From NCBI RefSeq assembly GCF_016907755.1, contig NZ_JAFBCN010000001.1:4278001-4342000 (forward strand): a DNA stretch of 64,000 nucleotides. Reading direction: 5' to 3'. Each line of letters opens with the position of its first letter. Position 1 is the stretch's first letter. The stretch is from Cellulosimicrobium cellulans (GTDB lineage: Bacteria > Actinomycetota > Actinomycetes > Actinomycetales > Cellulomonadaceae). Positions 2,165 through 42,244 of this stretch are shown one piece after another. The position numbers and the translations under genes were made by a program. The notes under the pieces were generated by a model. That model was not told where the DNA came from and ran no database searches. It was given only the letters and a program-made list of their open reading frames with translations.

Positions 2165-2237
2165 CGCGAGGTAGAACCTCCGGTCTCGAGGTAGAGGCCT
2201 GCGGGTTCTACCTCGAGACCGGAGGTTCTACCTCGCG
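2165..2237. repeat. Dispersed GAGGTAGA/TCTACCTC repeat, copy 1
   Basis: Two 31-base arms (2165-2195 and 2207-2237) are exact reverse complements around an 11-base loop. Each arm holds two units: CGAGGTAGA at 2167 and 2187, TCTACCTCG ending at 2215 and 2235, both 20 bp apart. The same unit pattern recurs at 8634-8713 and, as a half copy, at 42208-42244. It lies between the 3' ends of phoU and gpmA, next to but separate from the terminator. Confidence 0.85.
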
Positions 2238-2265
2238 CGACCGCGGTTGTACCGCGCGCACGCAG

Positions 2266-2311
2266 AGACGGCCGTGGCCCGTCCGGATGTCCGGACGGGC
2301 CACGGCCGTCT
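2266..2311. terminator. Bidirectional terminator between phoU and gpmA
   Basis: A perfect 22-bp stem (2266-2287 with 2290-2311) closes a 2-base gap, so the folded loop would be slightly larger. It sits between convergent gene ends and can serve both strands. No clear T-run follows, as is usual in such high-GC genomes. Confidence 0.75.
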
Positions 2312-2326
2312 GTGCGGGGTGGGCGG

Positions 2327-3064
2327 TCAGCGGCCCTGGTTGGCGACCGCGGCGGCGGCCTCGGCGGCGGCCTCGGGGTCGAGGTAGCGGCCGCCCTTGG
2401 TGATCGGCTTCAGGTCCTCGTCGAGCTCGTAGAGCAGCGGGATGCCGGTCGGGATGTTGAGCGCGGCGATGTCCTCGTCGGAGATGCCGTCGAGGTGCTT
2501 GACGATCGCGCGCAGCGAGTTGCCGTGCGCCGCGACGAGGACGGTCTTGCCCGCCTTCAGGTCCGGGACGACCTCGCCGTCCCAGTACGGCAGCGCGCGC
2601 TCGAGCACGTCCTTGAGGCACTCGGTGCGCACGACGGGGGCGTCGGCGTAGCGCGGGTCCGCGTCCTGGGAGAACTCGGAGCCGAGCTCGATCTCCGGCG
2701 GCGGGACATCGTACGAGCGGCGCCAGAGCATGAACTGCTCCTCGCCGAACTCGTCGAGCGTCTGCTTCTTGTTCTTGCCCTGCAGCGCGCCGTAGTGGCG
2801 CTCGTTGAGGCGCCACGACCGCTTCACGGGGATCCAGTGACGGTCCGCGGCGTCGAGCGACAGGTTCGCCGTCGTGATGGCCCGACGCAGGAGCGAGGTG
2901 TGCACGACGTCGGGCAGGACGCCGGCCTCGGTGAGGAGCTGACCGCCGCGCTTCGCCTCCTCGGTCCCCTTCTCCGACAGGGCGACGTCCACCCAGCCGG
3001 TGAACAGGTTCTTGGCGTTCCATTCGCTCTCGCCGTGGCGGAGCAGCACGAGGGTGTAGGTCAT
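2327..3064 (-). CDS. gpmA: 2,3-bisphosphoglycerate-dependent phosphoglycerate mutase
   Basis: Glycolytic enzyme interconverting 3- and 2-phosphoglycerate through a phosphohistidine. The protein has 245 residues, normal for the dimeric cofactor-dependent class. The catalytic histidine is in [10 protein letters not shown] (His10); the second active-site histidine is in [10 protein letters not shown] near residue 180; the ERHYGALQG substrate loop is present. The ATG at 3064 is preferred over another in-frame ATG at 3073 because AGGA lies eight bases upstream. The C-terminus ends in an Ala/Glu-rich tail. Convergent with phoU. Confidence 0.95.
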
Positions 3065-3187
3065 GGGTTCCATCCTGCCGCACGGCCCGGCGCACGGGCA
3101 CCCGCGTCCCACGTGGTGGTGACCGTCGCCGTCGGGCGTGGGACGAAGGTCCGGGAATCCGACGGGCGGCGCGCACGTTGCCCGGAC

Positions 3188-3634
3188 ATGCCGATCGACG
3201 GAGAGTACGCCCCCAGCCCGAGCGCCTGGTCCCGCAAGCAGGCCGAGTCCTACGAGTCGTCCGGAGGGACGCGCAGCACGACCCTGAACGGGATGCCGGT
3301 GGTCGTGCTCACCACCCTCGGGCGCCGCAGCGGGAAGGTCCGCAAGACGCCGCTCATGCGGGTCGAGCACGACGGCGCGTACGCCGTCGTGGCGTCGCTC
3401 GGCGGCGCGCCGCAGCACCCGGTCTGGTACCACAACGTCCTCGCGCACCCGCAGGTCGAGCTCCAGGACGAGGCCGAGCGCCACGACTACGTGGCGCGCG
3501 AGGTCCACGGCGAGGAGAAGGCGCTCTGGTGGGAGCGCGCCGTCGCCGCCTACCCGCCGTACGCGGACTACCAGCAGAAGACGTCGCGCGAGATCCCCGT
3601 CCTGGTCCTGGAGCGCTCCGCGCCGGACGCCTGA
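3188..3634 (+). CDS. Deazaflavin (F420)-dependent nitroreductase family protein
   Basis: A 148-residue protein of the Ddn/DUF385 split-barrel family, which uses reduced F420 to reduce quinones, nitro compounds or other substrates. Family traits seen are the [18 protein letters not shown] segment (cofactor phosphate contact), the central [17 protein letters not shown] block and a C-terminal [12 protein letters not shown] segment. The physiological substrate cannot be read from sequence. It stands alone, convergent with mshA, 25 bp from that gene's stop codon. The F420 genes fbiA and fbiD lie some 50 kb away, so the cofactor is plausibly made by this organism. Confidence 0.85.
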
Positions 3635-3659
3635 GCGGCGACGGAGGTCGCGCGGGGCG

Positions 3660-4982
3660 TCAGCGCGCCGCGCGGACCTTGCGCGCCTGCGCGTAGACGT
3701 CGAGCATGCGCAGCGCGGCGGTGTCCCAGCCGAACCGTTCGCCCGCACGCCGGGCGCCGTCGCCGAGCGCGGCGAGGCGCGCGTCGTCGGCGAGCAGGTC
3801 CCGGAGCACGCGCGCCCACGTCTCCGGGTCGTGGTCGGGCACGAGGACGCCGGAGACCTGGTCCTCGACCACCGTCCGCAGCCCGCCGACGGCGGCCGCG
3901 ACGACGGGCGTGCCGCTCGCCTCGGCCTCGGCCGCGACGAGCCCGAACGACTCGTTGTGCGACGGCACGGCGACGACGTCCGCCGCGCGGTACCACCGCG
4001 CGAGCTCGTCGCGCGGGACCGGCGGGCGCACGACGAGCCGGTCGCTCACCCCGACCTGGTAGGCGAGCGCCTCGAGCTCGCGCACCGCCGTCGGGCGCCC
4101 GCTCGGGCCGCCCAGCACGACGAGCGTCGGCACCGGCTCCCCGCGCTCGGCGAGGACGCCGAGCGCCCGGACGAGCACGTCCGGACCCTTGAGCGGCTGC
4201 ACCCGCCCCGCGAAGAGGACGAGGCCGCCGTCGGTGGGCAGCCCCAGCCCGGCGCGCAGCGTCCGGCGCCGCTCCCGCCGCGCGGCGCCGTCGCCCGCCG
4301 ACGCGCCGCCGGGGTCCGGGGAGAACAGGTCGAGGTCGACGCCCGGCGGCACGACGTGCACGCGCGCGGGGTCGGCCGCGTAGTCGCGCACGAGGTCGTC
4401 CGCCTCGGCGTCCGTGCTCGCGACGAGCGCGTCCGCCTCGGCGACGACCTGCTCCTCCCCGATGATCCGGCCCAGCGGCTCGGGCGCGTCCCCCGGGGCG
4501 AGCGCGGCGTTCTTCACGCGCGCGAGCGTGTGCATGGTGTGCACGAGCGGCACGTCCCAGCGGTCGGCCGCGAGCCAGCCCACCTGCCCGGAGAGCCAGT
4601 AGTGGGTGTGGACGACGTCGTACCAGCCCTCGTGGTGCCGCGCCTCCGCGCGCAGCACCCCCGCCGTGAAGGCGCAGAGCTGGCCGGGCAGGTCGTTCTT
4701 GTCGAGCCCCTCGAAGGGCCCGGCGACGACGTGGCGCACCGTCACGCCGTCGGACACCTCGACCTTGCGGGGCTGGCTCGACGCCGTGGCGCGCGTGAAG
4801 ATCTCGACCTGCGTGCCGCGACGCGCGAGCGCGTGCGCGAGCTCCGTGACGTACACGTTCATGCCGCCCGCGTCGCCCGTGCCCGGCTGGTCGAGGGGCG
4901 ACGTGTGCACCGAGAGCATCGCGACCCGCAGCGGGGTCGCCGGGTCCGGGGAGACGCCTTCGGGCAGCTCGAGCGCGGTCAC
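3660..4982 (-). CDS. mshA: D-inositol-3-phosphate glycosyltransferase (mycothiol synthesis)
   Basis: First enzyme of mycothiol synthesis: transfers N-acetylglucosamine from UDP-GlcNAc to 1L-myo-inositol 1-phosphate. The protein has 440 residues and the GT-B/GT4 fold. The N-terminal domain shows the acceptor loop [10 protein letters not shown] (about 36-45) and [11 protein letters not shown]. The C-terminal domain shows [15 protein letters not shown] and the UDP-binding [13 protein letters not shown] stretch. Its start lies 6 bp after the lactonase stop, so the two are probably co-transcribed. Last gene of the long minus-strand run. Confidence 0.94.
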
Positions 4983-4988
4983 GGCGGG

Positions 4989-6182
4989 TCAGGCCTCCAC
5001 GACGCACGCCGGGGCGGGCAGCGCGAGCACGTCGAGCACGTGGGCGGCGCCGTCCGAGCGGCGCACGCGCAGGAGCGCGAGGTTCGACGTCGGCTCCTCC
5101 CCCGCGGGGGCGTCCGGCCGCTCGATCAACGGGTCGTCGTTCTGGTTCGCGACGACGACGAGGTCGTGCAGGGTCTCCTCGGGGGTGGCCGGAGCGTCCA
5201 GGACGGCGAAGTGGCGCGGCCAGGCGCCGCCCACCGGGGAGTCGGCGAGGTGGCGCAGGCCGGGGACACCGCCGTCGGGGGTCGGCTCCACCGCGTGCAC
5301 GGCGAGCACGTCGGCGCCGCGCACCGCGGCGAGGACGCGCGTGCCGTCCGCCGAGACCGCCACGTGCGAGGGGTAGTTCCCGCCGCCCGCGGGGGCCGCG
5401 GCGTGCGTGACGTCGTAGCGCGCGGCCACGTCGTAGGTGCGCGCGCCGTCGGGGCCGCCGACCGGGGCGAGGACGAACAGGGCCGGGTCGAGCTCGCCGA
5501 CCACGACGAGGTGCCCGGACGGCAGCGCGGCGAGGTGGCGCGGACCGGTCCCCGGAGGGAAGGTCGCGACGACGCGCGGGGCCGATCCGTCCGCGGCAGC
5601 GGGGTCGTGCCGGCGCAGCTCGTCGGTCCCCAGGTCCACGACGAGCACGTCGCCGCTGCCGTCGTCGGCGGAGCCGAGGTGGGCGAGCGGGGCGACGAAG
5701 TGGGCGTGCGGCCCCTCCTGGCGGTCGGCGACCGGCCCCGTGCCCGCGTGCCCCTGGTGACGCACGGCGGCGCCGGGCTGGTCGTCCGCCACCGCGGCGA
5801 GCGAGCCGTCCGCCGCGGTCGCGACGGCCGTGAGGACGCCGTCACCGTAGTTCGCGACGAGCACGTCACCGCTCACGACGACGTGGCAGGGGTACGCCCC
5901 GCCGGTGGCGACGGGCCTGCCCCGGGGTGCGAGGCCGCCGTCGGCCCCGACGGCGAACGCCGACACCGAGCCGACCTCTGTCTCCCCCACCGCGTAGAGC
6001 GTGTCACCGTCGAGGGCGAGGAACGACGGCGACGGTGTCTCGGCGACCAGCGCGCCGCCCACGAACGACCCGGTCCCCGCCACGGCGTCGACGTCGAGCC
6101 CGACGCGCCACACGCCCTCCGCGCCGCCGTTCGCCGGGTGCGGGTAGGTGCCGATCCAGAGGGCGCGGGTCGCGGAGGTCAT
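4989..6182 (-). CDS. Lactonase family beta-propeller protein
   Basis: A 397-residue protein of the YbhE/Pgl-like family (seven-bladed propeller, family PF10282), whose known members hydrolyse 6-phosphogluconolactone. N-terminal LWIGTYPHPANGGAEGVW matches the first blade of the family. The GPHAHF and GTGPRHLA segments and the late WPRHFA segment correspond to conserved loops around the active site. No signal peptide is visible. It is immediately upstream of mshA and shares its transcription unit. The exact lactone substrate is unknown, so it is not named pgl. Confidence 0.8.
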   Translation of the reverse strand: MTSATRALWIGTYPHPANGGAEGVWRVGLDVDAVAGTGSFVGGALVAETPSPSFLALDGDTLYAVGETEVGSVSAFAVGADGGLAPRGRPVATGGAYPCHVVVSGDVLVANYGDGVLTAVATAADGSLAAVADDQPGAAVRHQGHAGTGPVADRQEGPHAHFVAPLAHLGSADDGSGDVLVVDLGTDELRRHDPAAADGSAPRVVATFPPGTGPRHLAALPSGHLVVVGELDPALFVLAPVGGPDGARTYDVAARYDVTHAAAPAGGGNYPSHVAVSADGTRVLAAVRGADVLAVHAVEPTPDGGVPGLRHLADSPVGGAWPRHFAVLDAPATPEETLHDLVVVANQNDDPLIERPDAPAGEEPTSNLALLRVRRSDGAAHVLDVLALPAPACVVEA

Positions 6183-6280
6183 GACCCGAGCCTAGTTCTC
6201 CGGACGGGTGCCTCCGGCCCCGGGGAGACACCGGGCTGGCCCACGACGCGGACGCTGCCGCCCGCCCGGTGCGACGACGA

Positions 6281-6317
6281 GGGCGCCCTGCCGACGGTGC
6301 TGGTCGGCAGGGCGCCC
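6281..6317 (-). terminator. Terminator downstream of lsr2
   Basis: A 15-bp perfect stem (6281-6295 with 6303-6317) and 7-base loop lie just past the lsr2 stop codon on the minus strand, within the 157-bp gap before the lactonase. This suggests lsr2 is at least partly insulated from the lactonase-mshA pair. Confidence 0.7.
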
Positions 6318-6339
6318 CGGTGCTCGGTGCGACGTCGCG

Positions 6340-6675
6340 TCAGTGCGCCGCGTCGTACGCGGCCTGGATCTCCTGGGAGATCCGGCCACGGTCGTTGACC
6401 GTGTAGCCGTTGGAACGCGCCCACTCGCGGACCTCGGTCGCGCGGGCCGAGCCGGAGGCCCGGCTGCTGCGGCGCGCGGGGCGGGCCGTGCTCGTGCGGG
6501 ACGAGACCTTGCGCGCGTTGCCGACCCACGACGCGAAGGCGTCGCGCAGCTCCTGCGCATTCTTGGTGCTGAGGTCGATCTCGTAGGAGACGCCGTCGAG
6601 TGCGAACGTGACGGTCTCGTCGGCCGCGCCCCCGTCGAGGTCGTCGACGAGAATTACCTGGACTTTCTGGGCCAC
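6340..6675 (-). CDS. lsr2: Nucleoid-associated protein Lsr2
   Basis: Small DNA-bridging, H-NS-like protein that silences AT-rich, often foreign, DNA in actinobacteria. It has 111 residues. The N-terminal oligomerisation domain reads MAQKVQVILVDDLDGG, and the C-terminal DNA-binding domain carries the minor-groove RGR motif in VNDRGRISQEI. The GTG start at 6675 fits the family and has GAGGAAA upstream; an in-frame GTG at 6696 would add seven residues. The linker is rich in Arg/Ser/Ala. The 183 bp upstream of the gene is visibly less GC-rich than its surroundings, as expected for a region holding promoters. Confidence 0.94.
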   Translation of the reverse strand: MAQKVQVILVDDLDGGAADETVTFALDGVSYEIDLSTKNAQELRDAFASWVGNARKVSSRTSTARPARRSSRASGSARATEVREWARSNGYTVNDRGRISQEIQAAYDAAH

Positions 6676-6858
6676 TGTGGTTTCCTCACGCTTCACAGGA
6701 ATGATTGTCCTCGTCAGGATGCCACCGAGAAGACGAGGGCGTCAATTACCCACGCCGTTGACCGCTGCACGACGATCTGCGCGCCGTAACGCATTCCTGG
6801 ACGCGAGTCCATCATTCCGCCCGGCAATTGACGCACCGTATCGGGCACGGGAGCGGGC

Positions 6859-7038
6859 TCAGGAGTCGCGCGCGGGCGCGGCATTCCCGTCGGCCGCCGA
6901 TTCCTGTTCCGCGTCGAGTCGCGCGAGCGCGGCGCGCTCGTTGCGGTCCGCGCGCACGATGGCGCGCATCGCGAAGTAGAAGAGCACGCCGACACCGATC
7001 GAGGGGATCAGTGCCGAGACGGTGGGCCAGATGTCCAT
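6859..7038 (-). CDS. Small single-pass membrane protein
   Basis: A 59-residue protein not recognised by family. The N-terminal half, IWPTVSALIPSIGVGVLFYF, is one hydrophobic segment; the C-terminal half is charged (RADRNERAALARLDAEQE), probably a short cytoplasmic helix. The ATG has GAGGACC about 5-10 bases upstream. It begins 27 bp after the lysS stop on the same strand, so co-transcription with lysS is likely. Similar short proteins occur in this position in related actinobacteria, as far as I recall; no function is known to me. Confidence 0.75.
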   Translation of the reverse strand: MDIWPTVSALIPSIGVGVLFYFAMRAIVRADRNERAALARLDAEQESAADGNAAPARDS

Positions 7039-7064
7039 GGTGTCGGTCCTCGTTCTCTGGGGCG

Positions 7065-8603
7065 CTACTGCTGCGCGGGCTTCACGAGCGGGAAGAGGAT
7101 GGTCTCGCGGATGCCGAGGCCGGTGAGCGCCATGAGCAGGCGGTCGATGCCCAGGCCCATGCCGCCCGACGGGGGCATCGCGTACTCCATCGCGGTGAGG
7201 AAGTCCTCGTCGATGCGCATCGCCTCCTCGTCGCCGGCGGCCGCGAGCAGCGCCTGCGCCTCGAAGCGCTGGCGCTGGACCACCGGGTCCACCAGCTCGG
7301 AGTACGCCGTCGCGAGCTCCACGCCGCGCACGTAGAGGTCCCACTTCTCGACCTGGCCGCGCACGGCCCGGTGGTCGCGCGTGAGCGGGGAGGTCTCGAC
7401 GGGGAAGTCGCGCACGAACGTCGGCGCGACGAGGTGGTCGCCGACCAGGTGCTCCCACAGGCCCTCGACGAGCTTTCCGTGGTTGACGTTCTTCGGGTCG
7501 AAGGTGAGCTCGAACTTGTCCGCGTACGCCAGCAACGTCTCGACCGGCGTCTCGGGCGTGATCGCCTCGCCCAGCGCGTCCGAGAGCGAGTCGTACATCT
7601 TGAGCTGCGTCCATTCGCCGCCGAGGTCGTATTCCGTGCCGTCGGCGAGCGTGACCAGGGTCTTCCCGAGCGCGTCCTGCGCGGCCCGCTGCACCAGGTT
7701 CTGGGTGAGCGCCGCCATCGTGTCGTAGTCGCCGTAGGCCTCGTACGCCTCGAGCATCGCGAATTCCGGCGAGTGCGTGGAGTCCACGCCCTCGTTGCGG
7801 AAGTTGCGGTTGATCTCGAACACCTTCTCGACGCCACCGACCGCCGCGCGCTTGAGGAACAGCTCGGGCGCGATGCGCAGGAACAGGTCGATGTCGAACG
7901 CATTCATGTGCGTCTCGAACTGGCGCGCCGCCGCGCCTTCCGGACGCGTCTGCAGCATCGGCGTCTCGACCTCGACGAAGCCGCGCTCCCAGAAGTTCTC
8001 GCGGATCGAGCGCACCACGGCGGCGCGCAGGCGCACCGTGTCCCGAGCGGCCGGGCGCGCGATGAGGTCCACGTAGCGCTGGCGCACGCGCGCCTCCTCC
8101 GAGAGCTCCTTGTGGAGCACCGGGAGGGGACGCAGCGCCTTCGCGGCGATCTGCCACGCGTCGGCGAACACGCTCAGCTCGCCGCGGCGCGAGCTGATGA
8201 CGCGGCCGTGCGCGAAGAGGTGGTCGCCCAGGTCGACGTCCGCCTTGAACGACGCGAGCGACTCCTCGCCCACGACGGCCTGGCTCAGCATGACCTGCAG
8301 GCGGTTGCCCTCGCCGTCCTGGAGCGTGGCGAAGCACAGCTTCCCGGTGTTGCGCAGGAACACGACGCGGCCGGCGACGCCGACCTCGTCCTGCGTCTCC
8401 TCGCCGGTCTCCAGGTGCGCGTACGCGGCCCGGACGTCGGCGATCGTCGTCGTGCGCGGGACGGACACGGGGTACGGCTGGTCGCCGCGCGCGAGGATCC
8501 GCTCGCGCTTCTCGCGGCGGACCTGCATCTGCTCCGGCACGTCGTCGACGTGCTCCTCGGGCTCGCGCGCGTCAGGAGAGGGGGTTCCGGCGGGGGAGGT
8601 CAC
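7065..8603 (-). CDS. lysS: Lysine--tRNA ligase (class II)
   Basis: Charges tRNA-Lys with lysine in the cytoplasm. The 512-residue protein has an N-terminal OB-fold anticodon-binding domain (about 60-180, [20 protein letters not shown]) and a class II catalytic domain. Motif 2 is [17 protein letters not shown] and motif 3 is [15 protein letters not shown]. The first 30 residues are an acidic, disordered extension. Its start region borders repeat copy 2 and nadC upstream. Followed on the same strand by a small membrane protein and lsr2. Confidence 0.96.
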
Positions 8604-8633
8604 CCGAGGATTCTACCGACGCCCGCACGTCGT

Positions 8634-8713
8634 CGAGGTAGAGGCGTGGTGCCGCGAGGTCGAGGCGCGGTCATGACCAGGGCTCTACCTCGCGCTACCA
8701 GGGCTCTACCTCG
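8634..8713. repeat. Dispersed GAGGTAGA/TCTACCTC repeat, copy 2
   Basis: Two reverse units (CGAGGTAGAGG at 8634, CGAGGTCGAGG at 8655) and two forward units (CCAGGGCTCTACCTCG at 8677-8692 and 8698-8713) are each spaced 21 bp. The order, two reverse then two forward, equals copy 1. The last unit supplies the TAG stop codon of nadC (8706-8708). It fills the nadC-lysS gap. Confidence 0.85.
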
Positions 8714-9683
8714 GCGGGAGGGTGGGCAGGAGGTCGAGGGCGAGGTCGAGGATCGGGGCCGAGTGGGTGAGCGCGCCGACCGAGAGGTAGTCGACGCCCG
8801 TGCCCGCGACCTCGCGCGCGCGGTCCAGCGTGAGGTTGCCCGTCGCCTCGAGCTCGACCTTCGCCGGCACGCCGTCCCTCCCCTCGCGCGCCCGGACGGC
8901 CGCGACCGTCTCGGCGAGGACCGGGGTCGGCATGTTGTCGAGCAGCAGGAAGTCCGCGCCCGCCGAGACGGCCTCGAGCGCCTGCGCGGTCGTGTCCGCC
9001 TCGACCTGGACGAGCACGTCCGGGAACGTGCGGCGGATCGCGTCGATCGCGGCGCTCACCGACCCGGCGGCCACCACGTGGTTGTCCTTGACCATCGCGA
9101 CGTCGTAGAGCCCCATGCGCTTGTTCGTCCCGCCCCCGGCGCGCACGGCGTACTTCTCGAGCGCGCGCAGGCCGGGCGTCGTCTTGCGGGTGTCCAGCAC
9201 CTGCGCGCCCGTGCCGGCGAGCTCGCGCGCCCACGCGCGCGTCGCCGTCGCGACGCCGGAGGCGCGGCTCGCGAGGTTGAGCAGCGTGCGCTCGGCCGTG
9301 AGGAGGACCTGGACCGGCCCCGTGAGCGCGGCGAGGACGCGTCCGCGACCCACGGCCTCGCCGTCGGACGCGACGAACGTCACCTCGACGCGCGGGAGGC
9401 CGAACCGCTCCGCGACCTGCCGCGTCACCTCCTCGACGACGACGAGCCCCGCCACGACCCCGTCCGCGCGGGCCACGAGGTGCGCGGTCCCGGTGGCCGA
9501 CGGCGGCACGGTCGCCTGCGTCGTGACGTCGCGCCCTGGCGCGACGCCCAGGTCCTCGTCGAGCGCCCGCGAGACGGTCTCGGCGATCCACGCGGGGTCG
9601 AGCCCCGGCTCGACACGTGACGGGACGGGCGGCGCTCCGCCGTCGGACGGAGGGGCGGGCACGGGCTCGGCGGGGCTGCTCAC
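8706..9683 (-). CDS. nadC: Nicotinate-nucleotide diphosphorylase (quinolinate phosphoribosyltransferase)
   Basis: Converts quinolinate and PRPP to nicotinate mononucleotide in de novo NAD synthesis. The protein has 325 residues; about 30 N-terminal residues are a Pro-rich extension over the usual length of about 285. Family motifs are LDTRKTTPGLRALEKYAV (substrate-binding Arg and Lys), GGGTNKRMGLYDVAMVKDNH and the late VDYLSVGALTHS. It follows nadB after a 119-bp gap that holds a 35-bp palindrome, so it may be expressed partly on its own. Its stop codon lies inside repeat copy 2. nadA is not in the window. Confidence 0.94.
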   Translation of the reverse strand: MSSPAEPVPAPPSDGGAPPVPSRVEPGLDPAWIAETVSRALDEDLGVAPGRDVTTQATVPPSATGTAHLVARADGVVAGLVVVEEVTRQVAERFGLPRVEVTFVASDGEAVGRGRVLAALTGPVQVLLTAERTLLNLASRASGVATATRAWARELAGTGAQVLDTRKTTPGLRALEKYAVRAGGGTNKRMGLYDVAMVKDNHVVAAGSVSAAIDAIRRTFPDVLVQVEADTTAQALEAVSAGADFLLLDNMPTPVLAETVAAVRAREGRDGVPAKVELEATGNLTLDRAREVAGTGVDYLSVGALTHSAPILDLALDLLPTLPPR

Positions 9684-9745
9684 GCCCCCACGGTAGTCGG
9701 CCCCGCGCGACGCCGAGCACGACCCTGCGCGCCGTCGAGAACGAG

Positions 9746-9780
9746 GTTGCGGTCGTTATCCGGCGGATAACGACCGCAAC
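9746..9780. repeat. 35-bp palindrome between nadB and nadC
   Basis: Arms GTTGCGGTCGTTATCCG (9746-9762) and its exact complement (9764-9780) flank a single central G. The arms have more A/T than neighbouring DNA. It lies after the nadB stop and before the nadC start on the minus strand. It could be a regulator operator, an attenuating hairpin or a mobile palindrome; nothing in the sequence decides. Confidence 0.8.
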
Positions 9781-9802
9781 GTCGTGTTCGGCGGCGGACC
9801 GG

Positions 9803-24259: not shown

Positions 24260-24264
24260 GGGGG

Positions 24265-25413: not shown

Positions 25414-25417
25414 CGGC

Positions 25418-26680: not shown

Positions 26681-26698
26681 GCACGGAGGAGGGGCCTG

Positions 26699-27351: not shown

Positions 27352-27361
27352 GCGACACCGT

Positions 27362-28837: not shown

Positions 28838-29029
28838 CGGCGCCTCCACCGGGACGTCGGGTGCGGGCACGTGCGCATTATCACTCAGCCCGGGCGACCG
28901 TGAGGCCTGTGGAAACCCTCCCGCGCGGACCGCACGTGTCACACTAGTTCCCGCACGACGGCGTGGTCCGTCGTCCACAGACCCAGCCACCGCCCGAGCG
29001 TCGCGGTGCCGGTACGACTGGAGGAAGCA

Positions 29030-29533: not shown

Positions 29534-29555
29534 CGCCCGGTCGCAGGACCCAGCA

Positions 29556-29599
29556 CGACGACGGCCGCCCACCTCGCACGAGGTGGGCGGCCGTCGTCG
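29556..29599. terminator. Bidirectional terminator after ppa
   Basis: A perfect 21-bp stem (29556-29576 with 29579-29599) lies between the convergent ends of ppa and the cell-wall-binding protein gene. Only two bases separate the arms, so the real loop is a few bases larger. Confidence 0.75.
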
Positions 29600-29603
29600 T
29601 CGG

Positions 29604-34828: not shown

Positions 34829-34901
34829 GAGGCCCCCGTTCTGTGTAGGTGAGGGAAATCTAGGGGAACGCGCCGGGATCAGACAATCCGATCGTTCCTC
34901 G

Positions 34902-36323
34902 TCAGGGACGACCCGCGTAGGGCATGGCGTCGGCCCAGCGCATCGCGACCTCGTGCACGGGGCTGCCGGGCTGGCGAGCCTCGATCATCATGCCGTTGCC
35001 GGTGTACATCGCGACGTGGCGGATGGTCGACGGGTTCGAGGTGTCGTTCGCGTAGAAGACGAGGTCACCCGGCCGGAGCTGGTCGTAGGAGATCTTCTGC
35101 ACGCGCTGGTACTGCGACCGCGACGTCCGCGTGATGTCGACGCCCGCAGCGGCCCAGGCGCGCGACGTGAGGCCCGAGCAGTCGTAGCCCGGCCCGGTGC
35201 CGCCGAACACGTACGGGGCGCCGATCTTGGTGCGCGCCCACGCGACCGCGGCCTGGCCCTGCGCCGCGCTGCCGACGCCGGTCCCCGGGGGCGGCGTGAC
35301 GACCGGCGGCGGGTCGGGGGGCGGCGCGGGCGTCGGTGCGGGTGCCGGGTTCGGTGCAGGTGCGGGATCCGGGGCCGGGGGCGGCGCGGGTGCAGGGTCG
35401 GGCGCCGGGTTCGCGGGTGCGGGGCTGCTCGTCGGGGGCGCCGCGGGCGTGCCCGACGGCGTCCCCGTCGCCGGGGCCTCGACGCGCGCCCGGGCGGCGG
35501 TCTCGCGCTCGCTCGCGGCCTGGGCGTCGAGGGCGTCCTGGCGCTGACGCTCGACGTCGACGCTCGTGGCCCGCGCGCGGGCGAGCTCGGCGAGGAGCGC
35601 CTCGCGGCGGGTCGCGGACTCCTGCACGGCATCGGCGAGCGCGTCGGACGAGACCTGGGCGGCGGCGAGCGCGTCCCGCGCGCGGTCCTCGACCTCGCCC
35701 TGGTGCGCGAGCGCCGCGTCGGCCCGGGCGCGGGCGGTGTCGGCCACGGCGCGCGCCGTCGCGTGTGCGTCGACCGCGCGACCGGCGGTTCGGCCGGCGA
35801 CACGCTCGGCGTTCTCCCGCTCGACGACCTGGCCCACGCCGTCCGCGTCCAGGACCGCGCGGAGCGCGTCGAGGTCGGTGGAGCCCTGCCGGGACGCGCG
35901 GAAGAGCGCACCCACGGCGGCACGGGCGTCCGCCTCGCCCGTCCGGGCGGTCGTGAGCGCCTCCTGCGCGTCGCGGACCTCCGCGTCGGCCGCGGCGAGC
36001 GCGTCCTGCGCGGCCGCGTACTCCTCCGCCGCGGTCTCGACTGCCGCCTCGGCGGTGGACTGCCGGTCCCGCAGCGACGCGAGCTCGCCCTCGACCGTCG
36101 CGACGTCCCGGGCCGCGCCGTCCGCGGCCTCGCGCGCGGCGCGGACGTCGTCGTCCGACGGCGGGTCGGACCACGCGGAGGGTGCGAGACCGACACCGAG
36201 CACGAGCGCGAGCAGGCCCGCCGCGGTCGCGGAGGCGAGTCGGCGGGGCCGGGTGGCCGGCCGACGCCGCGCTCCTCCGAGGAACGGCGACGGGCCAGCA
36301 GGCGCCGACGTCACGTCGTCCAT
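34902..36323 (-). CDS. NlpC/P60 family peptidoglycan endopeptidase
   Basis: 473-residue secreted hydrolase (RipA/Cgl-like layout). A signal peptide is at about 28-52 (ASATAAGLLALVLGVGL...AWS). An Ala-rich coiled coil spans about 60-290. A Pro/Ala linker (PAPNPAPAPTPAPP) follows. The C-terminal NlpC/P60 domain (about 360-473) has the catalytic Cys in YDCSGLTSRAW, His in STIRHVAMYTG and a polar third residue after GNGMMIEA. It probably cleaves stem peptides during division or growth. GAGGAGGTG precedes the ATG. It is read in the same direction as the cell-wall-binding genes downstream. Confidence 0.92.
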   Translation of the reverse strand: MDDVTSAPAGPSPFLGGARRRPATRPRRLASATAAGLLALVLGVGLAPSAWSDPPSDDDVRAAREAADGAARDVATVEGELASLRDRQSTAEAAVETAAEEYAAAQDALAAADAEVRDAQEALTTARTGEADARAAVGALFRASRQGSTDLDALRAVLDADGVGQVVERENAERVAGRTAGRAVDAHATARAVADTARARADAALAHQGEVEDRARDALAAAQVSSDALADAVQESATRREALLAELARARATSVDVERQRQDALDAQAASERETAARARVEAPATGTPSGTPAAPPTSSPAPANPAPDPAPAPPPAPDPAPAPNPAPAPTPAPPPDPPPVVTPPPGTGVGSAAQGQAAVAWARTKIGAPYVFGGTGPGYDCSGLTSRAWAAAGVDITRTSRSQYQRVQKISYDQLRPGDLVFYANDTSNPSTIRHVAMYTGNGMMIEARQPGSPVHEVAMRWADAMPYAGRP

Positions 36324-36699
36324 CGCACCTCCTCGACAGCTTGCTCGGCGTGTCCCGTTGACAGCACCCGCACGAGTCTGCCCAGAAGGTCCGCGATGCG
36401 CCATCGGAGCACCGCCAGTCTTCTCAGGATGTGGTCTCGCATCGCGAGACGCCCCTGTCGGGCGGCGCGGAACGCGCCTAGCCTCACGAGCATGTCCCGT
36501 CGAATGTGTCGCTGACCCTCGCACACGTTCGCCTGCCCGCGAGCCGTCGTCGACGACGTCCTCGCCGTGGCGATCCCGTCCCGTGTGCGCCCCTCGCCGC
36601 GGTCGACGGCCGGCCTCCCGCCCTCTCGTCCCCCACGGCACCCGCCCGCCCGGCGCGCCGTGCGCCGTCGTCCACCCCCACCACCCGCAGGAGAGCACC
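36324..36699. promoter_or_regulatory. nlpC-metY divergent intergenic region with hairpin and tiny ORFs
   Basis: 376 bp between divergent genes. It contains a hairpin GTCTCGC-ATC-GCGAGAC (36434-36450) that could be an operator or leader stem, and a short + strand frame ending MSRRMCR (36492-36515) lacking a good ribosome site. I looked for SAM-type riboswitch cores ahead of metY and c-di-AMP riboswitch cores ahead of nlpC and saw neither. No convincing longer gene is present. Confidence 0.45.
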
Positions 36700-38037
36700 A
36701 TGAGCACCGAGAACGCCCCCGCCTGGTCCTTCGAGACGCGCCAGGTCCACGCCGGCCAGACCGCCGACCCGACGACCGGCGCCCGCGCGCTGCCGATCTA
36801 CCAGACGACGTCGTTCGTCTTCCCCGACGCGTCGGTCGCGGCCGACCGCTTCGCGCTCAAGGACCTCGGCCCCATCTACACGCGCATCGGCAACCCGACC
36901 CAGGAGGTCGTGGAGAACCGCATCGCGTCGCTCGAGGGCGGCGTCGGCGCGCTCCTCCTCGCGTCCGGGCAGGCCGCGACGACGTTCGCGATCCTCAACG
37001 TCGCCGAGGCGGGCGACCACGTCGTCGCCTCCCCGAGCCTCTACGGCGGCACCTACAACCTGCTGCAGTACTCGCTCGCCAAGCTCGGCGTCGAGACGAC
37101 GTTCGTCTCCGACCCGCACGACCCGCAGGCCTGGCGCGACGCGGTGCGCCCGAACACGAAGCTGTTCTTCGGCGAGACGATCCCCAACCCGCAGGCCGAC
37201 GTCCTCGACATCGAGTCCATCGCGGCGGTCGCGCACGAGGTGGGTGTCCCGCTGATCGTCGACAACACGGTCGCCACCCCCTACCTGCTGCGCCCGCTCG
37301 AGCACGGGGCGGACGTCGTCGTGCACTCCGCGACGAAGTACCTGGGCGGGCACGGCTCGGCGATCGGCGGCGTGATCGTCGACGGCGGCACGTTCGACTA
37401 CGCGGCCCACCCCGAGCGTTTCCCGAACTACAACACGCCCGACCCGTCGTACAACGGCCTCGTCTACGCCCGCGACCTCGGCGTGGACGGCATCCTCGGG
37501 GCGAACCTCGCGTACGTGCTCAAGGCGCGGGTCCAGCTCCTGCGCGACCTGGGCTCCGCGATCTCGCCGTTCAACGCGTTCCTCATCGCGCAGGGCATCG
37601 AGACGCTGTCGCTGCGCGTCGAGCGCCACGTCGCCAACGCGCAGAAGGTCGCGGAGTGGCTCGAGGCCCGCGACGACGTCCGCACCGTGCACTACGCGGG
37701 CCTGCCGTCGAGCCCGTGGCACGAGCGGGCACAGAAGTACCTGCCGCGCGGCGCGGGTGCGGTGCTCGCGTTCGAGCTCGACGGCGGCAGCGAGGCGGGG
37801 CAGGCGTTCGTCTCCGCGCTGCAGCTCCACTCGAACGTCGCCAACATCGGCGACGTCCGCTCGCTCGTCATCCACCCCGCGTCGACGACGCACAGCCAGC
37901 TCACGCCCGAGGAGCAGGCGCAGTCCGGCGTCACGCCCGGCCTCGTCCGCCTCTCCGTCGGCATCGAGCACGTCGACGACATCCTCGCCGACCTCGAGCT
38001 CGGGTTCACGGCTGCCAAGTCGTCGCTGGGCGCCTGA
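36700..38037 (+). CDS. metY: O-acetylhomoserine sulfhydrylase
   Basis: PLP enzyme making homocysteine directly from O-acetylhomoserine and sulfide. 445 residues, Cys/Met metabolism fold type I. The PLP lysine is in VVHSATKYLGGHGSA; the N-terminal QTTSFVF and IYTRIGNPTQEVVENRIA and the aspartate in VPLIVDNTVATPYL are family features. The length and insertions fit MetY rather than the shorter MetB/MetC. GGAGAG lies before the ATG. metX follows 44 bp downstream, so the pair supplies and uses the same intermediate. Confidence 0.94.
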   Translation: MSTENAPAWSFETRQVHAGQTADPTTGARALPIYQTTSFVFPDASVAADRFALKDLGPIYTRIGNPTQEVVENRIASLEGGVGALLLASGQAATTFAILNVAEAGDHVVASPSLYGGTYNLLQYSLAKLGVETTFVSDPHDPQAWRDAVRPNTKLFFGETIPNPQADVLDIESIAAVAHEVGVPLIVDNTVATPYLLRPLEHGADVVVHSATKYLGGHGSAIGGVIVDGGTFDYAAHPERFPNYNTPDPSYNGLVYARDLGVDGILGANLAYVLKARVQLLRDLGSAISPFNAFLIAQGIETLSLRVERHVANAQKVAEWLEARDDVRTVHYAGLPSSPWHERAQKYLPRGAGAVLAFELDGGSEAGQAFVSALQLHSNVANIGDVRSLVIHPASTTHSQLTPEEQAQSGVTPGLVRLSVGIEHVDDILADLELGFTAAKSSLGA

Positions 38038-38081
38038 GCGACGACGCCCGCTCGCACGGCAGAACCACGACGAGGACAGCG

Positions 38082-39398
38082 ATGACGGATCTGGACAGCC
38101 GGGGCGCCCTGCGCGCCCCGGCCGTACAGTGGCCGACGGTGAGCCCTGTGAACGACGACCTCCTCTCCCCCGCCCCCGACGCCCGCCGCGGCCCCCGCGC
38201 GGACGCCGCGGCGGGGCGCGGCGTCGCACCGTCGCGCGCCCGGGTGAAGGCTCCGGTCCCGGCGACGGGCGCGTGGCGCGAGGGCGACCCGGCCGGCCGA
38301 CGGCGGTTCGCCGACGTCGGCACGTTCGACCTCGAGTCCGGCGCCCGCCTGCCCGACGTGCGCGTCGCGTACGAGACGTGGGGCACGCTCGCACCGGACG
38401 GGTCGAACGCCGTCCTCGTCCTGCACGCCCTGACCGGCGACTCCCACGTCAGCGGCCCGGCGGGCGACGGCCACGTCACCGCGGGCTGGTGGGAGTCGCT
38501 CGTCGGCCCCGGCGCGCCGATCGACACCGACCGCTGGTTCGTCGTCGCGCCCAACGTGCTCGGCGGGTGCCAGGGCACCACGGGCCCGGCGTCCACCGCA
38601 CCCGACGGACTCCCCTGGGGCAGCCGCTTCCCACGCGTCACGACCCGCGACCAGGTCGCGGTCGAGATCGAGCTCGCGCGGTCCCTCGGCATCGCGTCGT
38701 GGGCGTTCGTCGTCGGCGCCTCGATGGGCGGGCACCGCGTCCTCGAGTGGGCCCTCCTCGGCCCCGAGGCGGGGATCGACGTCGTCTCCCTCGCCGCGAT
38801 CGCCACGACCGCACAGACCACTGGCGACCAGATCGCGTGGGCGCACCCCCAGCTCGGGGCCGTCCGGGCCGACCCGGGCTTCCGGGGCGGCGACTACTAC
38901 GACGCGGCGGACGGCGACGGCCCGCACGTCGGCCTCGGCATCGCCCGGCAGATCGCGCACGCCACGTACCGGTCCGCGCGCGAGCTCGACGACCGGTTCG
39001 GGCGCCTCCCGCAGGGGGGCGAGGACCCCTTCACCGACGGGCGCTACGCCGTGCAGTCGTACCTCGACCACCACGGCGACAAGCTCGCGCGGCGCTTCGA
39101 CGCCAACTCGTACGTCGTGCTCACGGAATCGATGCTCACGCACGACCTGGGGCGGGACCGCGGCGGCGTCGAGGCGGCGCTCGCGCAGGTCACGGCGCAC
39201 GCGCTCGTCGTCGCGGTCGACACGGACCGGCTCTTCCTGCCCGCGGACTGCGCGCGCATCGCGGCCGGGATCCCGGGGGCCGAGCCGCTGCGGACGCTCA
39301 CGAGCGACTTCGGGCACGACGGGTTCCTCATCGAGTTCGACCAGCTCGGCCCGATCGTCGCGGACTTCCTCGGGGAACGCGCCGGCGTCCGCGACTGA
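38082..39398 (+). CDS. metX: Homoserine O-acetyltransferase
   Basis: Acetylates homoserine with acetyl-CoA, giving the substrate for metY. 438 residues, alpha/beta-hydrolase fold. The catalytic triad is visible: Ser in VVGASMGGHRVLEW, Asp in VVAVDTDRLFLP and His in DFGHDGFLIEF. The first 55 residues are a variable extension; the ATG at 38082 has GAGGA five bases upstream. Co-directional and probably co-transcribed with metY. Confidence 0.94.
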   Translation: MTDLDSRGALRAPAVQWPTVSPVNDDLLSPAPDARRGPRADAAAGRGVAPSRARVKAPVPATGAWREGDPAGRRRFADVGTFDLESGARLPDVRVAYETWGTLAPDGSNAVLVLHALTGDSHVSGPAGDGHVTAGWWESLVGPGAPIDTDRWFVVAPNVLGGCQGTTGPASTAPDGLPWGSRFPRVTTRDQVAVEIELARSLGIASWAFVVGASMGGHRVLEWALLGPEAGIDVVSLAAIATTAQTTGDQIAWAHPQLGAVRADPGFRGGDYYDAADGDGPHVGLGIARQIAHATYRSARELDDRFGRLPQGGEDPFTDGRYAVQSYLDHHGDKLARRFDANSYVVLTESMLTHDLGRDRGGVEAALAQVTAHALVVAVDTDRLFLPADCARIAAGIPGAEPLRTLTSDFGHDGFLIEFDQLGPIVADFLGERAGVRD

Positions 39399-39459
39399 GA
39401 CCTGTCCACGGGATGGTGCCGTGGCGGGCGTGCCCACGCCGTCCTGGCACGATGAGGAG

Positions 39460-40170
39460 ATGGACAGCGACGTGACCGAGGCAGCCCAGCACCTGCGCGC
39501 CCAGTGGGACCGGCTCGACCGGTGGCTGCGCGACCTCGGTGACGAGCTCGACCGTGACGCCGGGCGTCCCAGCGTGCTCGACGGGTGGACCGTGGGCGAG
39601 CTGGTCTCCCACCTCGGCCGCGTCATGGAGACCCTCGCGCTCTGCGGACCCGTGCCGGCCGGAACCGTCCCCCTCACGCTCGCGGAGTACCTCGGCACGT
39701 ACCCGGAGCGCGCGGAGGAGATCGAGCACGCGACGCGCGCCCTCGACGAGCAGATCGCCGCCGACCGCCTCGGGAACGTCGAGGAGTTCGCCGCCGCGGG
39801 CCTCGCGCGCCTCGACGAGCTCGCCGACGAGCGCGTCGTGCAGGCGCGACGCGGACCGATCACGCTCCTCGACATGGTGCGCTCGCGCGTCCTCGAGCTC
39901 GTGGTGCACGCCGACGACCTCGCCCGCACGTTCCCGGGAGTCCACGCCGACCCCGTGGACCGTGCCGCTCTCGACGCCGTCGCGGCCGAGCTGCTGCGCG
40001 TCGTCGTCACGCGCGGTGGCTGGGCGCTCGAGGTGCGCGACGCCCGCCTCTGGCTGCGTCTCGCGTGCGGCCGCGTCCCCTACGACGTGGACGATCTCGC
40101 GCGCGCCCTGGAGCCCGTGCACACGTCCGAGGCCGTCCCGGACCTCGGTCGCATGCTGCCGATCCTCTGA
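39460..40170 (+). CDS. Mycothiol-dependent maleylpyruvate isomerase-like protein
   Basis: 236 residues, DinB-like four-helix fold with the MDMPI N-terminal domain. Metal-ligand signatures are visible: WTVGELVSHLGRVME (His) and ELVVHADDLARTF (His and Asp). The C-terminal SCP2-like half is present in part (GGWALEVRDARLWLRL). Members use mycothiol or act as thiol transferases; the substrate here is not known. The start is uncertain between ATG 39460 and GTG 39421. It stands between metX and a reductase, with spacing that allows its own promoter. Confidence 0.75.
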   Translation: MDSDVTEAAQHLRAQWDRLDRWLRDLGDELDRDAGRPSVLDGWTVGELVSHLGRVMETLALCGPVPAGTVPLTLAEYLGTYPERAEEIEHATRALDEQIAADRLGNVEEFAAAGLARLDELADERVVQARRGPITLLDMVRSRVLELVVHADDLARTFPGVHADPVDRAALDAVAAELLRVVVTRGGWALEVRDARLWLRLACGRVPYDVDDLARALEPVHTSEAVPDLGRMLPIL

Positions 40171-40247
40171 CCGCTCTCCCGGCGGGGTGACGCGCGGCAC
40201 GCGAGTCTCCCGTGGTTGCGGCGCGGGCCGGACCGTAGGTTGGGGGC

Positions 40248-41207
40248 ATGCTCGCCGCCTACGCCGACCACCTCGACCCCGACGACCCCCTCGCCGGGCT
40301 GGTCGTCGGGGACCGCCCCGAACCCGAAGCCCGCGAGCACTGGACGACCGTGGACGTGCGCGCCGCGTCCCTCAACCACCACGACCTCTGGTCGCTGCGC
40401 GGCGTCGGGCTGCCTGCCGACCGGCTCCCCATGATCCTCGGGACGGACGCCGCGGGCGTCGCGCCGGACGGCACCGAGGTCGTCGTGCACGCGGTGGTCG
40501 GCGCGGACGGGCACGGCGTCGGGCCGGCCGAACGGCGGTCGCTCCTCTCCGAGCGCTACCCCGGCACGCTCGCCGAGCGCGTCGCCGTCCCGACCCACAA
40601 CCTCGTCCCCAAGCCGCCCGAGCTGACCTTCGTCGAGGCCGCGTGCGTGCCCACGGCCTGGCTCACCGCGTACCGGATGCTCTTCACCGCCGGCGGTGCC
40701 GCCCCCGGCGACCGCGTCCTCGTCCAGGGCGCGGGCGGTGGGGTCGCGACGGCGGCGGTCGCCCTCGGCGCGGCCGCCGGGCTCGAGATGTGGGTGACCT
40801 CCCGCTCCGCCGGCAAGCGTGCCGCGGCAGCCCGGCTCGGGGCCGCCGCGACCTTCGAGCACGGCACCCGGCTGCCCGCGCCGGTCGACGTCGTCGTCGA
40901 GACCGTCGGCCAGGCGACCTGGCGACACTCGCTGCGGTCGGTCCGTCCGGGCGGGACCGTCGTCGTCGCCGGGGCGACCAGCGGCGACGCGTCGCCCGCG
41001 GAGCTCTCGCGCGTCTTCTTCCACGAGATCCGCGTCCAGGGCGTCACTATGGGCTCGCGCGACGACCTCGCCGCGCTGCTGCGGTTCCTCGCCCGGAGCA
41101 AGGTCCGGCCCGTCGTCGACCAGGTGCTGCCCCTGACGCAGGCACGCGACGGACTCGCGCGCCTCGCGGACGGCGACCACTTCGGCAAGGTGGTGCTCAC
41201 GCCGTGA
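40248..41207 (+). CDS. Medium-chain NADP-dependent reductase/quinone oxidoreductase family
   Basis: 319 residues of the MDR superfamily. The N-terminal GroES-like domain starts around VDVRAASLNHHDLWSLRG; the nucleotide-binding motif is VLVQGAGGGVATAAVALG. The residues normally binding catalytic zinc are not evident, which points to the zinc-free quinone oxidoreductase-like branch despite common annotation as zinc-binding dehydrogenase. The stop overlaps the next gene's GTG by 4 bases, so the reductase and hydrolase are probably made together. Substrate unknown. Confidence 0.85.
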   Translation: MLAAYADHLDPDDPLAGLVVGDRPEPEAREHWTTVDVRAASLNHHDLWSLRGVGLPADRLPMILGTDAAGVAPDGTEVVVHAVVGADGHGVGPAERRSLLSERYPGTLAERVAVPTHNLVPKPPELTFVEAACVPTAWLTAYRMLFTAGGAAPGDRVLVQGAGGGVATAAVALGAAAGLEMWVTSRSAGKRAAAARLGAAATFEHGTRLPAPVDVVVETVGQATWRHSLRSVRPGGTVVVAGATSGDASPAELSRVFFHEIRVQGVTMGSRDDLAALLRFLARSKVRPVVDQVLPLTQARDGLARLADGDHFGKVVLTP

Positions 41208-42175
41208 CGGCGACCGCCTGGCGACCGGACGTCCTCGGGGCCGGGTACGAGCAGCGCACGGTCGAGCTGGAGCCCGACGACGAGGGCGACGTCGTGGTCA
41301 CCGTCGTGCGGTACGCCCCCGACACCGAGGAACCGATCCGACCAGCACGAGCCGTGCTGTACGTCCACGGCTGGAGCGACTACTTCTTCCAGACCGAGCT
41401 CGCCGAGACCTGGCACGGGCTGGGCGCCGCGTTCTACGCCCTGGACCTGCGCAAGTACGGGCGCAGCCTCCGGCCGCACCAGACACCCGGGTACGTCGAG
41501 CATCTCGTCGACTACGACCCGGACATCGCAGCCGCGCTCGACGTCGTCCGCGAGGACCTCGGCGCGCACGTCGCGATCATGCTCATGGGTCACTCCACCG
41601 GAGGCCTCGTCGCCGCGCTCTGGGCGCACCGGCACCCGGGGGTCGTGCGCGGCCTGGTGCTCAACAGCCCGTGGCTCGAGCTGCAGGGGTCGTCGGTCGC
41701 GCGGACCGTCTCCGGACCCGCGATCCGGCAGCTCGCCCGCTTCCAGCCCCGCGCGCCGCTGCCGAACGTGGACCCGGGTTACTACGCGCGGACGCTACGC
41801 GACCGTGACGACGGCTCCTGGGTGATCGACGACGCCTGGCGACCCGTCCCGTCGTTCCCCGTCCGCGCCGGCTGGCTCCGAGCCATCATCTCGGGCCACG
41901 CCCGCGTCGCGGCCGGCCTCGCCGTCGACAGCCCCGTGCTCGTGCTCCTCGCCGAGAGGTCGCTCTTCAGCACCCGCTGGTCCGAGGACATGCGCTCCGC
42001 CGACATCGTGCTCGACGTCGAGCCGCTCGCGCGCCGCGCCGCGCACCTGGGACGGGTCGTCACCATCGTCCGGATCCCTGGCGGGATGCATGACCTCTCC
42101 CTCTCCGCGCCGGAGCCGCGGGCGCGCTTCTTCGCCGAGATCGTGCGCTGGTCGGCGGCCTACGGCTGGGCCTGA
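41204..42175 (+). CDS. Alpha/beta hydrolase (lysophospholipase-like)
   Basis: 323 residues. The oxyanion-hole region is AVLYVHGWSDYFFQ, the nucleophile elbow GHSTGG, a likely acid residue follows in the C-terminal half, and the histidine is in IPGGMHDLSLS. The pattern fits the serine aminopeptidase S33/Hydrolase_4 group that includes monoglyceride lipases and lysophospholipases. No signal peptide. Translation appears coupled to the upstream reductase (GTGA). It is the last protein gene before the rRNA operon, which is convergent. Confidence 0.85.
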   Translation: MTATAWRPDVLGAGYEQRTVELEPDDEGDVVVTVVRYAPDTEEPIRPARAVLYVHGWSDYFFQTELAETWHGLGAAFYALDLRKYGRSLRPHQTPGYVEHLVDYDPDIAAALDVVREDLGAHVAIMLMGHSTGGLVAALWAHRHPGVVRGLVLNSPWLELQGSSVARTVSGPAIRQLARFQPRAPLPNVDPGYYARTLRDRDDGSWVIDDAWRPVPSFPVRAGWLRAIISGHARVAAGLAVDSPVLVLLAERSLFSTRWSEDMRSADIVLDVEPLARRAAHLGRVVTIVRIPGGMHDLSLSAPEPRARFFAEIVRWSAAYGWA

Positions 42176-42207
42176 CGTCGACGACCACGCGCCGTCCAGC
42201 CCAAGAA

Positions 42208-42244
42208 CCCTGGCTCTCCCTCGCGTGACCAGGGCTCTACCTCG
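42208..42244. repeat. Dispersed GAGGTAGA/TCTACCTC repeat, half copy 3
   Basis: A degenerate unit ending CTCTCCCTCG at 42223 and a good unit CCAGGGCTCTACCTCG at 42229-42244 are 21 bp apart, in forward orientation, like the right half of copy 2. It lies between the hydrolase stop and the rRNA terminator. Confidence 0.75.

Follow-up and report, generated by a model that had tools for sequence, protein, structure and literature searches.

A dispersed 20- or 21-bp repeat with REP/BIME-like features at gene 3' ends in Cellulosimicrobium

We find that the short arrays of a 20- or 21-bp unit at three loci of a 64,000-nucleotide stretch of the Cellulosimicrobium cellulans genome (the window) belong to a repeat that is dispersed through the genome and concentrated just past stop codons. 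We interpret these units as a new REP/BIME-like, non-autonomous intergenic family that lacks a detectable RAYT, is nearly restricted to one genus, and whose unit is probably both a recognition site and the target of an IS110-family element; we give this reading a probability of roughly 0.6. It would make the repeat an actinobacterial counterpart of REP/BIME in which no RAYT is found and related species hold from 0 to 223 exact pairs, so that how such repeats spread, and whether their 3'-end placement is useful, could be tested by species comparison and by deletion. No repeat of this kind is described in the titles and abstract openings that we found on REP, RAYT, Actinobacteria, Cellulosimicrobium and Cellulomonas repeats.

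The first-pass annotation had proposed a repeat dispersed over three loci, and this is borne out. All three copies are in place. The window contains 13 copies of CTACCTCG, where 1.6 would be expected (13 or more in 0 of 100 shuffles), and 3 box pairs with a gap of 10-14 nt, where 0.00 would be expected. Across the genome, the TCTACCTCG box is found 344 times (176 + 168) against 30 (11 + 19) for a reversed control, and paired boxes with start-to-start distances of 17-25 bp are found 59 times (34 + 25) against 0. A hand count of the steps in these 59 listed pairs gives 17 of 20 bp, 41 of 21 bp, one of 22 bp and none of any other length. Together, the window shuffles and the genome counts against the reversed control rule out a chance origin. 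A coding origin is likewise rejected: exact single boxes are common within genes (34 of 55 in an 864-kb sample), where we read them as chance codon matches, yet the pairs are largely intergenic.

The first locus in the window (2165..2237) is a class A array, with four outward-facing boxes (<<>>) at 2167-, 2187-, 2207+ and 2227+ in 20-bp steps around a divergent centre of 20 bp. It contains a 31-bp perfect inverted repeat with 100% complementary arms and 11 nt between them, and as RNA it folds at -72.1 kcal/mol (z -10.6). Its first box lies 22 nt after the stop codon of a PhoU-domain gene (1461..2144, plus strand), and a separate, strong terminator-like hairpin follows at 2261..2316; in the relatives G002 and G010 the array is absent and this hairpin is kept, directly after the stop. 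The second locus (8634..8713) is a class B array with boxes at 8634-, 8655- (one mismatch), 8684+ and 8705+ in 21-bp steps, a divergent centre of 29 bp around GGTCATGACC (8669-8678), and an RNA fold with z -5.2. The plan first described for both copies, two reverse and then two forward units, is indeed common to them, but their geometry differs in both centre and step. The outermost box of the second array supplies the TAG stop codon (8706..8708, minus strand) of nadC (quinolinate phosphoribosyltransferase; 8706..9683, minus strand), the 3' end of which overlaps the array. The earlier description of a gene 3'-end location and of a stop codon supplied to nadC is therefore correct, with the addition that a class II (D/K/N-type) tRNA synthetase gene (7065..8603, minus strand) follows, its start 30 nt downstream of this copy. 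The third locus (42215..42244, plus strand) is a class B half array of two forward boxes 21 bp apart (42215+ and 42236+), as had been proposed, except that the first box has one mismatch and starts at 42215 rather than 42208. The stop codon of an alpha/beta-hydrolase gene (41204..42175, plus strand) lies 39 nt before it; a terminator-like hairpin (42281..42315) separates it from a convergent rrn operon (5S at 42325-42441, minus strand) and is kept in several relatives that have no array here.

This placement past the ends of genes holds for most arrays. Using genes called by a home-made caller, 44 of 49 arrays lie outside called ORFs and five inside. The neighbourhood of 42 arrays is convergent in 21, codirectional in 18 and divergent in 3, against a baseline (bases in gaps of at least 40 nt) of 18.6%, 51.2% and 30.2%, and 28 of the 42 lie at most 30 nt past a stop codon against 18.6% of random placements; these arrays are not all independent, because the two halves of a composite (described below) were scored separately and core sites were chosen deliberately for retrieval. 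A box supplies the TAG stop itself in 5 of the 39 arrays that have a stop-side neighbour.

The unit reads approximately ACCNNGGY-TCTACCTCG-SS-NNN; units follow one another in tandem, and arrays are often inverted with the units facing outward. Units were collected by way of the box, so the conservation of the box itself cannot be judged from them; the ACC..GG flank, which played no part in the search, shows a per-position conservation of 0.57-0.86 across 21 units, and the NNN positions are unconserved. In the scan used, 15 of 49 arrays carry both orientations and 34 only one, some of the latter being halves of composites or having degenerate partners. Palindromy is a property of the inverted arrays and is absent from the single 21-bp unit, which is no REP-type palindrome and is self-complementary only in ACCNNGGT. 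The GTAG lies inside the GAGGTAGA box and is followed by a stem of at most 3 bp in class B, whereas class A arms pair with the distant arm. Such class A arms pair at 214 of 286 positions, where exchanging arms at random among the elements gives 167.5 (sd 6.9); in 8 of 26 class A elements the outer spacer pairs at only 3 to 7 of 11 positions.

It is possible to read the palindromic arrays as acting in RNA, as terminators at transcript 3' ends or as protection of mRNA 3' ends, and the two palindromic folds in the window, the covariation of class A arms and the position after stop codons all point in this direction. However, the half array at 42215..42244 does not fold significantly (z -0.7 and -1.4), and most arrays have their boxes in a single orientation. 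Conversion between inverted repeats in DNA would preserve arm complementarity equally well. At the first and third loci, the array stands between a stop codon and a separate hairpin that persists in relatives lacking the array, and for that reason we reject the array as the intrinsic terminator of the upstream gene there. Membership in a known structured RNA family is rejected too: at gathering score, Rfam 15 gives three rRNA matches in the window, none at the arrays, and 0 matches at five array, core and IS loci. We consider a role in the transcript unlikely.

Now we consider how the repeat is distributed among relatives. Of 221 family genomes, 23 have the pair (the reversed control gives 0 in the genomes listed), including 16 of the 17 genomes of what we infer to be Cellulosimicrobium, with 1-223 pairs each; two more genomes outside the genus hold many copies. 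Exact-box pairs thus span 0 to 223 within the genus, a range that includes two genomes only 75 and 83% complete, and in which counts are lowered by drift of the box from one species to another (it reads GAGGTAGTACC at a locus of G012 and GGGGAGTACC at loci of G015). Between close relatives or species, arrays differ by whole units and at matching loci can also be absent. The genomes G011 and G016 differ by whole-unit changes in arrays, and at their 8 shared array loci (179 aligned kb) no whole array has been gained or lost, so array movement was not caught in this comparison.

These data bear on a second alternative, that a single DNA-binding protein (a nucleoid, topology or segregation factor) has its sites in the arrays all over the chromosome, and that these are selected in place and are not mobile. 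Adjacent boxes (292 pairs) are mostly 20-22, 29-30, 40-42 or 63 bp apart, with a few pairs at 18, 19, 24, 38, 46, 50, 51 and 9 bp. Steps near multiples of 10 bp, a conserved flank beside unconserved NNN positions and enrichment between convergent genes would all suit such a protein, but the wide span of exact-pair counts in a single genus, the same locus without an array in close species and the drift of the box argue against it, and we hold it to be improbable. The first-pass suggestion of a helically phased protein-binding array is compatible with the spacing of the 292 pairs; the spacing does not decide for it, because an identical pattern could arise from tandem duplication and common descent by themselves.

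Some arrays border a larger repeat with a hairpin core, present in 17 of 17 genus genomes at copy numbers that are lower bounds because about 40 candidates per genome were scored. An array lies on at least one side in 45 of 62 fetched core copies and on both sides in 24, a count that leaves out short, duplicate or locus-end-near core matches. The arrays might be the multi-site ends of a new composite non-autonomous element, in which 21-bp arrays face outward from a hairpin core of constant tip and freely varying complementary stems; a non-HUH enzyme would move this element in trans to sites next to stop codons. We see this as a slim prospect. Among the core loci listed, no autonomous copy with a gene between the arrays is present, IS110 insertions aside, and at 50 palindromic arrays there is no target-site duplication signal beyond the box letters themselves. 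Carriage by phages or plasmids is judged unlikely: a 751-bp composite has no match in plasmid or phage collections, and the 24 viral stretches that match a loose pair pattern do so once each.

Returning to the REP/BIME-like reading, the repeat has high copy number, is dispersed and mostly extragenic, is enriched at 3' ends and depleted from divergent gaps, and forms alternating-orientation mosaics in 15 of 49 arrays. It shares with the GTAG-tagged REP/BIME of proteobacteria many intergenic 3'-end copies, inverted mosaics, a narrow range, the supply of TAG stops and use as an IS landing site. This much of the annotated REP/BIME likeness stands; what does not carry over is the single unit, which here is a strict 20/21-bp tandem unit rather than an imperfect palindrome of 20-40 bp, the RAYT, which is not found in the genus, and the larger hairpin-core repeat that some arrays border. 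No RAYT-like transposase appeared in the genus: Pfam Y1_Tnp, the one HUH family searched (positive control, 5 of 14 genomes), is found in none of the 17 genus genomes and in 2 of 221 family genomes (G482 and G515), neither of which has the repeat pair. As in REPIN-RAYT systems, a short conserved sequence is dispersed in inverted pairs within one species group, but a cognate Y1 transposase is found in none of the 17 genomes, and this search yields no mobilising enzyme for the arrays. That these are RAYT-spread REPs proper is accordingly very unlikely, even though the unit's GTAG, 3' location, TAG supply and BIME-like mosaics match GTAG REPs, whose termini are reported to supply TAG stops (PMC3733652; further background in PMC11208160, PMC2817692 and PMC11187229).

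Minisatellite or MIRU-type VNTRs also change copy number by whole units between strains, as do the arrays here (G011 against G016, and between species), whereas these arrays are inverted, have a fixed box and are dispersed at gene 3' ends; local slippage without dispersal is largely refuted because the unit occurs at dozens of unrelated loci and the core is shared by 17 of 17 genus genomes, and we hold it to be very unlikely.

Under the REP/BIME-like reading, some factor other than RAYT that binds or mobilises DNA would recognise the unit, and this would account for spacings close to multiples of 10 bp. Whole-unit changes may result when units slip or recombine with one another, and arrays or composites may have spread by being moved in trans. 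Gene 3' ends would be sites that tolerate, or benefit from, DNA of this kind, along the lines put forward for REP (supercoil relief, mRNA 3' ends), and the repeat would then offer IS110 elements a place to insert safely.

REPs are reported to serve as IS targets (PMC1525189). In G011, all five IS110-family copies, whose transposase has PF01548 and PF02371, are inserted at one fixed base of the 21-bp unit. The five corresponding sites of G016 are all empty, seamless in 2 and with a different unit number or spacer in 3. Insertion at one base of one sequence, with matching sites otherwise intact, is the IS110 pattern, and five insertions beside five empty sites amount to a natural experiment on RNA-guided target choice. 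As with IS621 and other REP-targeting IS110/IS1111 elements, insertion into a chromosomal repeat is at a fixed base, and 13 nt of the element's noncoding region match the target (CGAGGTAGAGCCG), here in a putative guide RNA; in contrast, the target is a 21-bp unit, and a 9-nt match (CCGTGGTCG), the putative second guide half, is in target sense like the first, which does not seem to fit the published opposite-strand layout.

We find that the three window loci, at 2165-2237 behind phoU (copy 1), 8634-8713 at nadC (copy 2) and 42215-42244 at an alpha/beta-hydrolase gene (copy 3), carry the repeat sequences that the first-pass annotation described there. The window holds 13 copies of CTACCTCG against 1.6 expected, a number reached in 0 of 100 shuffles, and three close tandem pairs of the box (the short conserved sequence inside each repeat unit) against 0.00 expected. 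The genome-wide excess that the annotation proposed to look for is present in the 4.79 Mb of this genome (G000, where the window is 4278001-4342000): TCTACCTCG occurs 344 times, compared with 30 for the reversed control, and forms 59 box pairs, compared with 0. By hand count, with steps of 17-25 bp allowed, these pairs fall at 20 bp (17), 21 bp (41) and 22 bp (1). Pairs are scarce in contig 1 between about 2.28 and 3.83 Mb (5/59) relative to 0.43-2.28 Mb (36/59). Of the 55 exact boxes in 864 kb sampled from the genome (the window and 40 stretches of 20 kb at even spacing), 34 are genic and 21 intergenic; thus the isolated genic boxes look like chance, and the repeat family looks mainly intergenic and paired.

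The arrays are built to two plans. In class A, four boxes oriented <<>> span 69 bp, with every step 20 bp; copy 1 is of this class and forms a perfect 31-bp inverted repeat (RNA fold z -10.6). In 26 class A elements of distinct sequence, the outer spacer of one arm (11 nt) pairs with that of the other at 214/286 positions in all, whereas exchanging arms between elements gives 167.5 (sd 6.9, maximum 194, 1000 trials), an agreement that is partial in that 8 of the 26 pair at just 3 to 7 of 11. The spacer in Oerskovia record L095 is wholly different and still pairs at 11/11. Class B, to which copies 2 and 3 belong, uses 21-bp steps and a unit of about ACCNNGGY-TCTACCTCG-SS-NNN, a consensus of 21 units located by their box, so that only its flanking letters are independent evidence. 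In its palindromic arrays the central, divergent step measures 29-30 bp and encloses GGTCRTGACC; copy 2 folds with z -5.2, and copy 3 gives no fold. The fetched non-viral loci give 292 sequence-distinct adjacent pairs of exact boxes. Their tandem steps (n=243) are 20-22 bp in 220, 42 in 13 and 63 in 3, and divergent steps (n=47) are 20 bp in 22, 29-30 in 9 and 40-41 in 10. This spacing fits boxes on one helix face, but tandem duplication of one unit with common descent would also give it.

To place the arrays relative to genes, we use 49 found by a scored scan of fetched G000 DNA, a partial census (coordinate-listed pattern matches, an even sample and core sites) in which composite halves count twice: 42 are intergenic, with a called gene on each side, 5 fall within a called ORF and 2 are at a locus edge. 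Neighbours of the 42 are convergent in 21 cases, codirectional in 18 and divergent in 3, against 18.6%, 51.2% and 30.2% of bases in intergenic gaps of at least 40 nt. In 28/42 the array starts no more than 30 nt from a stop codon, compared with 18.6% of random placements. In 31 of 39 arrays the stop-proximal unit, read in the sense of the mRNA, is GAGGTAGA, partly a consequence of the <<>> plan; in 5/39 the unit supplies the TAG stop.

All three genes are present in 17/17 genomes of the genus. At nadC the number of 21-bp units varies among relatives; with the first box mutated in G002 and G005, the frame there continues to the TAG of the next unit, G003 and G015 keep degenerate units at most, and across the 17 genomes no clear array follows the gene in G008, G009, G012, G013 or G014. 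Behind phoU, a class A array precedes a hairpin in G000, G011, G016, G007 and G005 (decayed in G009); G001, G004 and G006 have a class B array followed by other sequence, and in G002 and G010 a similar hairpin directly follows the stop, without an array. The copy 3 array likewise precedes a hairpin, which is retained without a recognisable array in G001, G002, G009, G010, G015 and others. Because the hairpin persists in array-less relatives, the array is not the terminator at either locus. In L197 (G012), a different tandem repeat with a 14-bp step stands behind the hydrolase gene, at the site of the 21-bp array in other species. G011 and G016, 98.4-99.3% identical over long blocks, differ at two arrays, in each case by a single 21-bp unit; the 179 kb aligned between them include 8 shared array loci, none of which differs by a whole array.

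In some cases two half arrays form the ends of a composite ordered as < array, about 30 nt, hairpin core, variable stretch and > array. The core occurs in 17/17 genus genomes, with at least 11 to at least 42 matches each; among 62 distinct copies with sufficient flank, arrays stand on both sides in 24, left only in 14, right only in 7 and neither in 17. Its tip is constant (CTACCATCC...TCGT.CCTCG...TCCCGCCAG...CACGAC). In 54/60 copies, 22-24 of the 24 positions in the outer stem are paired; since pairing is kept across 21 distinct arm sequences, covariation is strong. Few genomes outside the genus have the exact tip pattern (6/396 genomes of the order, this one included), and neither arrays nor core matched Rfam or the plasmid and phage collections. 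Copies of the hairpin core on its own also exist: of 6 loci checked, 4 place it within a called gene, and no exact box is close by (all G000: L127:13698-13748, L130:5588-5639, L294:1501-1553, L298:1489-1537). These stand-alone cores have very different arm sequences with pairing retained, and we read them as a family of palindromic elements whose tip is constant and whose stems vary freely.

The suggestion of a REP/BIME-like element stands in part. Placement, mosaic build, stop-codon supply and targeting by insertion sequences are common to both; REP, however, is defined by a palindromic single unit and a RAYT transposase, and the array family shows neither. The RAYT-like enzyme that the annotation proposed to seek is absent as Y1_Tnp from G000 and 17/17 genus genomes (2/221 family genomes have it; 5/14 controls were positive), and no target-site duplication was found at 50 palindromic arrays. 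We therefore file the family as a new variant related to REP/BIME, not as REP itself.

The insertion sequence in question is an IS110-family element (PF01548, PF02371) with five copies in G011, four open and one broken, on contig 1 near 277374, 315933, 755617, 4012450 and 4592654; its closest matches in the 16 other genomes are 39% (G014) and 30% (G009) identical. The insertion base is identical in 5/5 copies, CGAGGTAGAGC|IS|CGTGGTYG; the edges are taken as limits of shared sequence, which does not pin down the core dinucleotide. All five corresponding G016 sites are unoccupied arrays, two seamless to the base and three differing in unit number or adjacent spacer. Upstream of the transposase, noncoding sequence contains two matches to the target: CGAGGTAGAGCCG, identical over 13 nt, and CCGTGGTCG, identical to the other half of the target over 9 nt. 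According to PMC11208160 and PMC11187229, the two halves of published IS110 guides pair with opposite strands, whereas both matches here are in target sense; hence only CGAGGTAGAGCCG makes a good guide candidate. Insertion sequences that target REPs are already known (PMC1525189), and IS621 is one according to a reference in PMC11187229.

The 20/21-bp pair is found in 23 of the 221 genomes of the family. Within the genus, 16 of 17 have it, at 1 to 223 pairs each; beyond it, the pair is present in G522 (64), G026 (27) and five others (1-2 each). Exact four-box patterns in named records give 14 stretches (12 Cellulosimicrobium, 1 Oerskovia, 1 labelled Sphaerisporangium), and from these we infer that the repeat-bearing genus is Cellulosimicrobium. 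The class A element in record L090 (labelled Sphaerisporangium cinnabarinum) otherwise occurs in records of Cellulosimicrobium and Oerskovia, and the label of L090 may be wrong. G522 (genus g21) has 64 unit pairs and the other listed genomes of g21 have 0, which may reflect recent gain or transfer. Some loci of low-copy genomes keep the 21-bp step while the box has drifted, for example to GAGGTAGTACC (L256, G012) or GGGGAGTACC (L244, G015), a species-wise drift that REP families likewise show.
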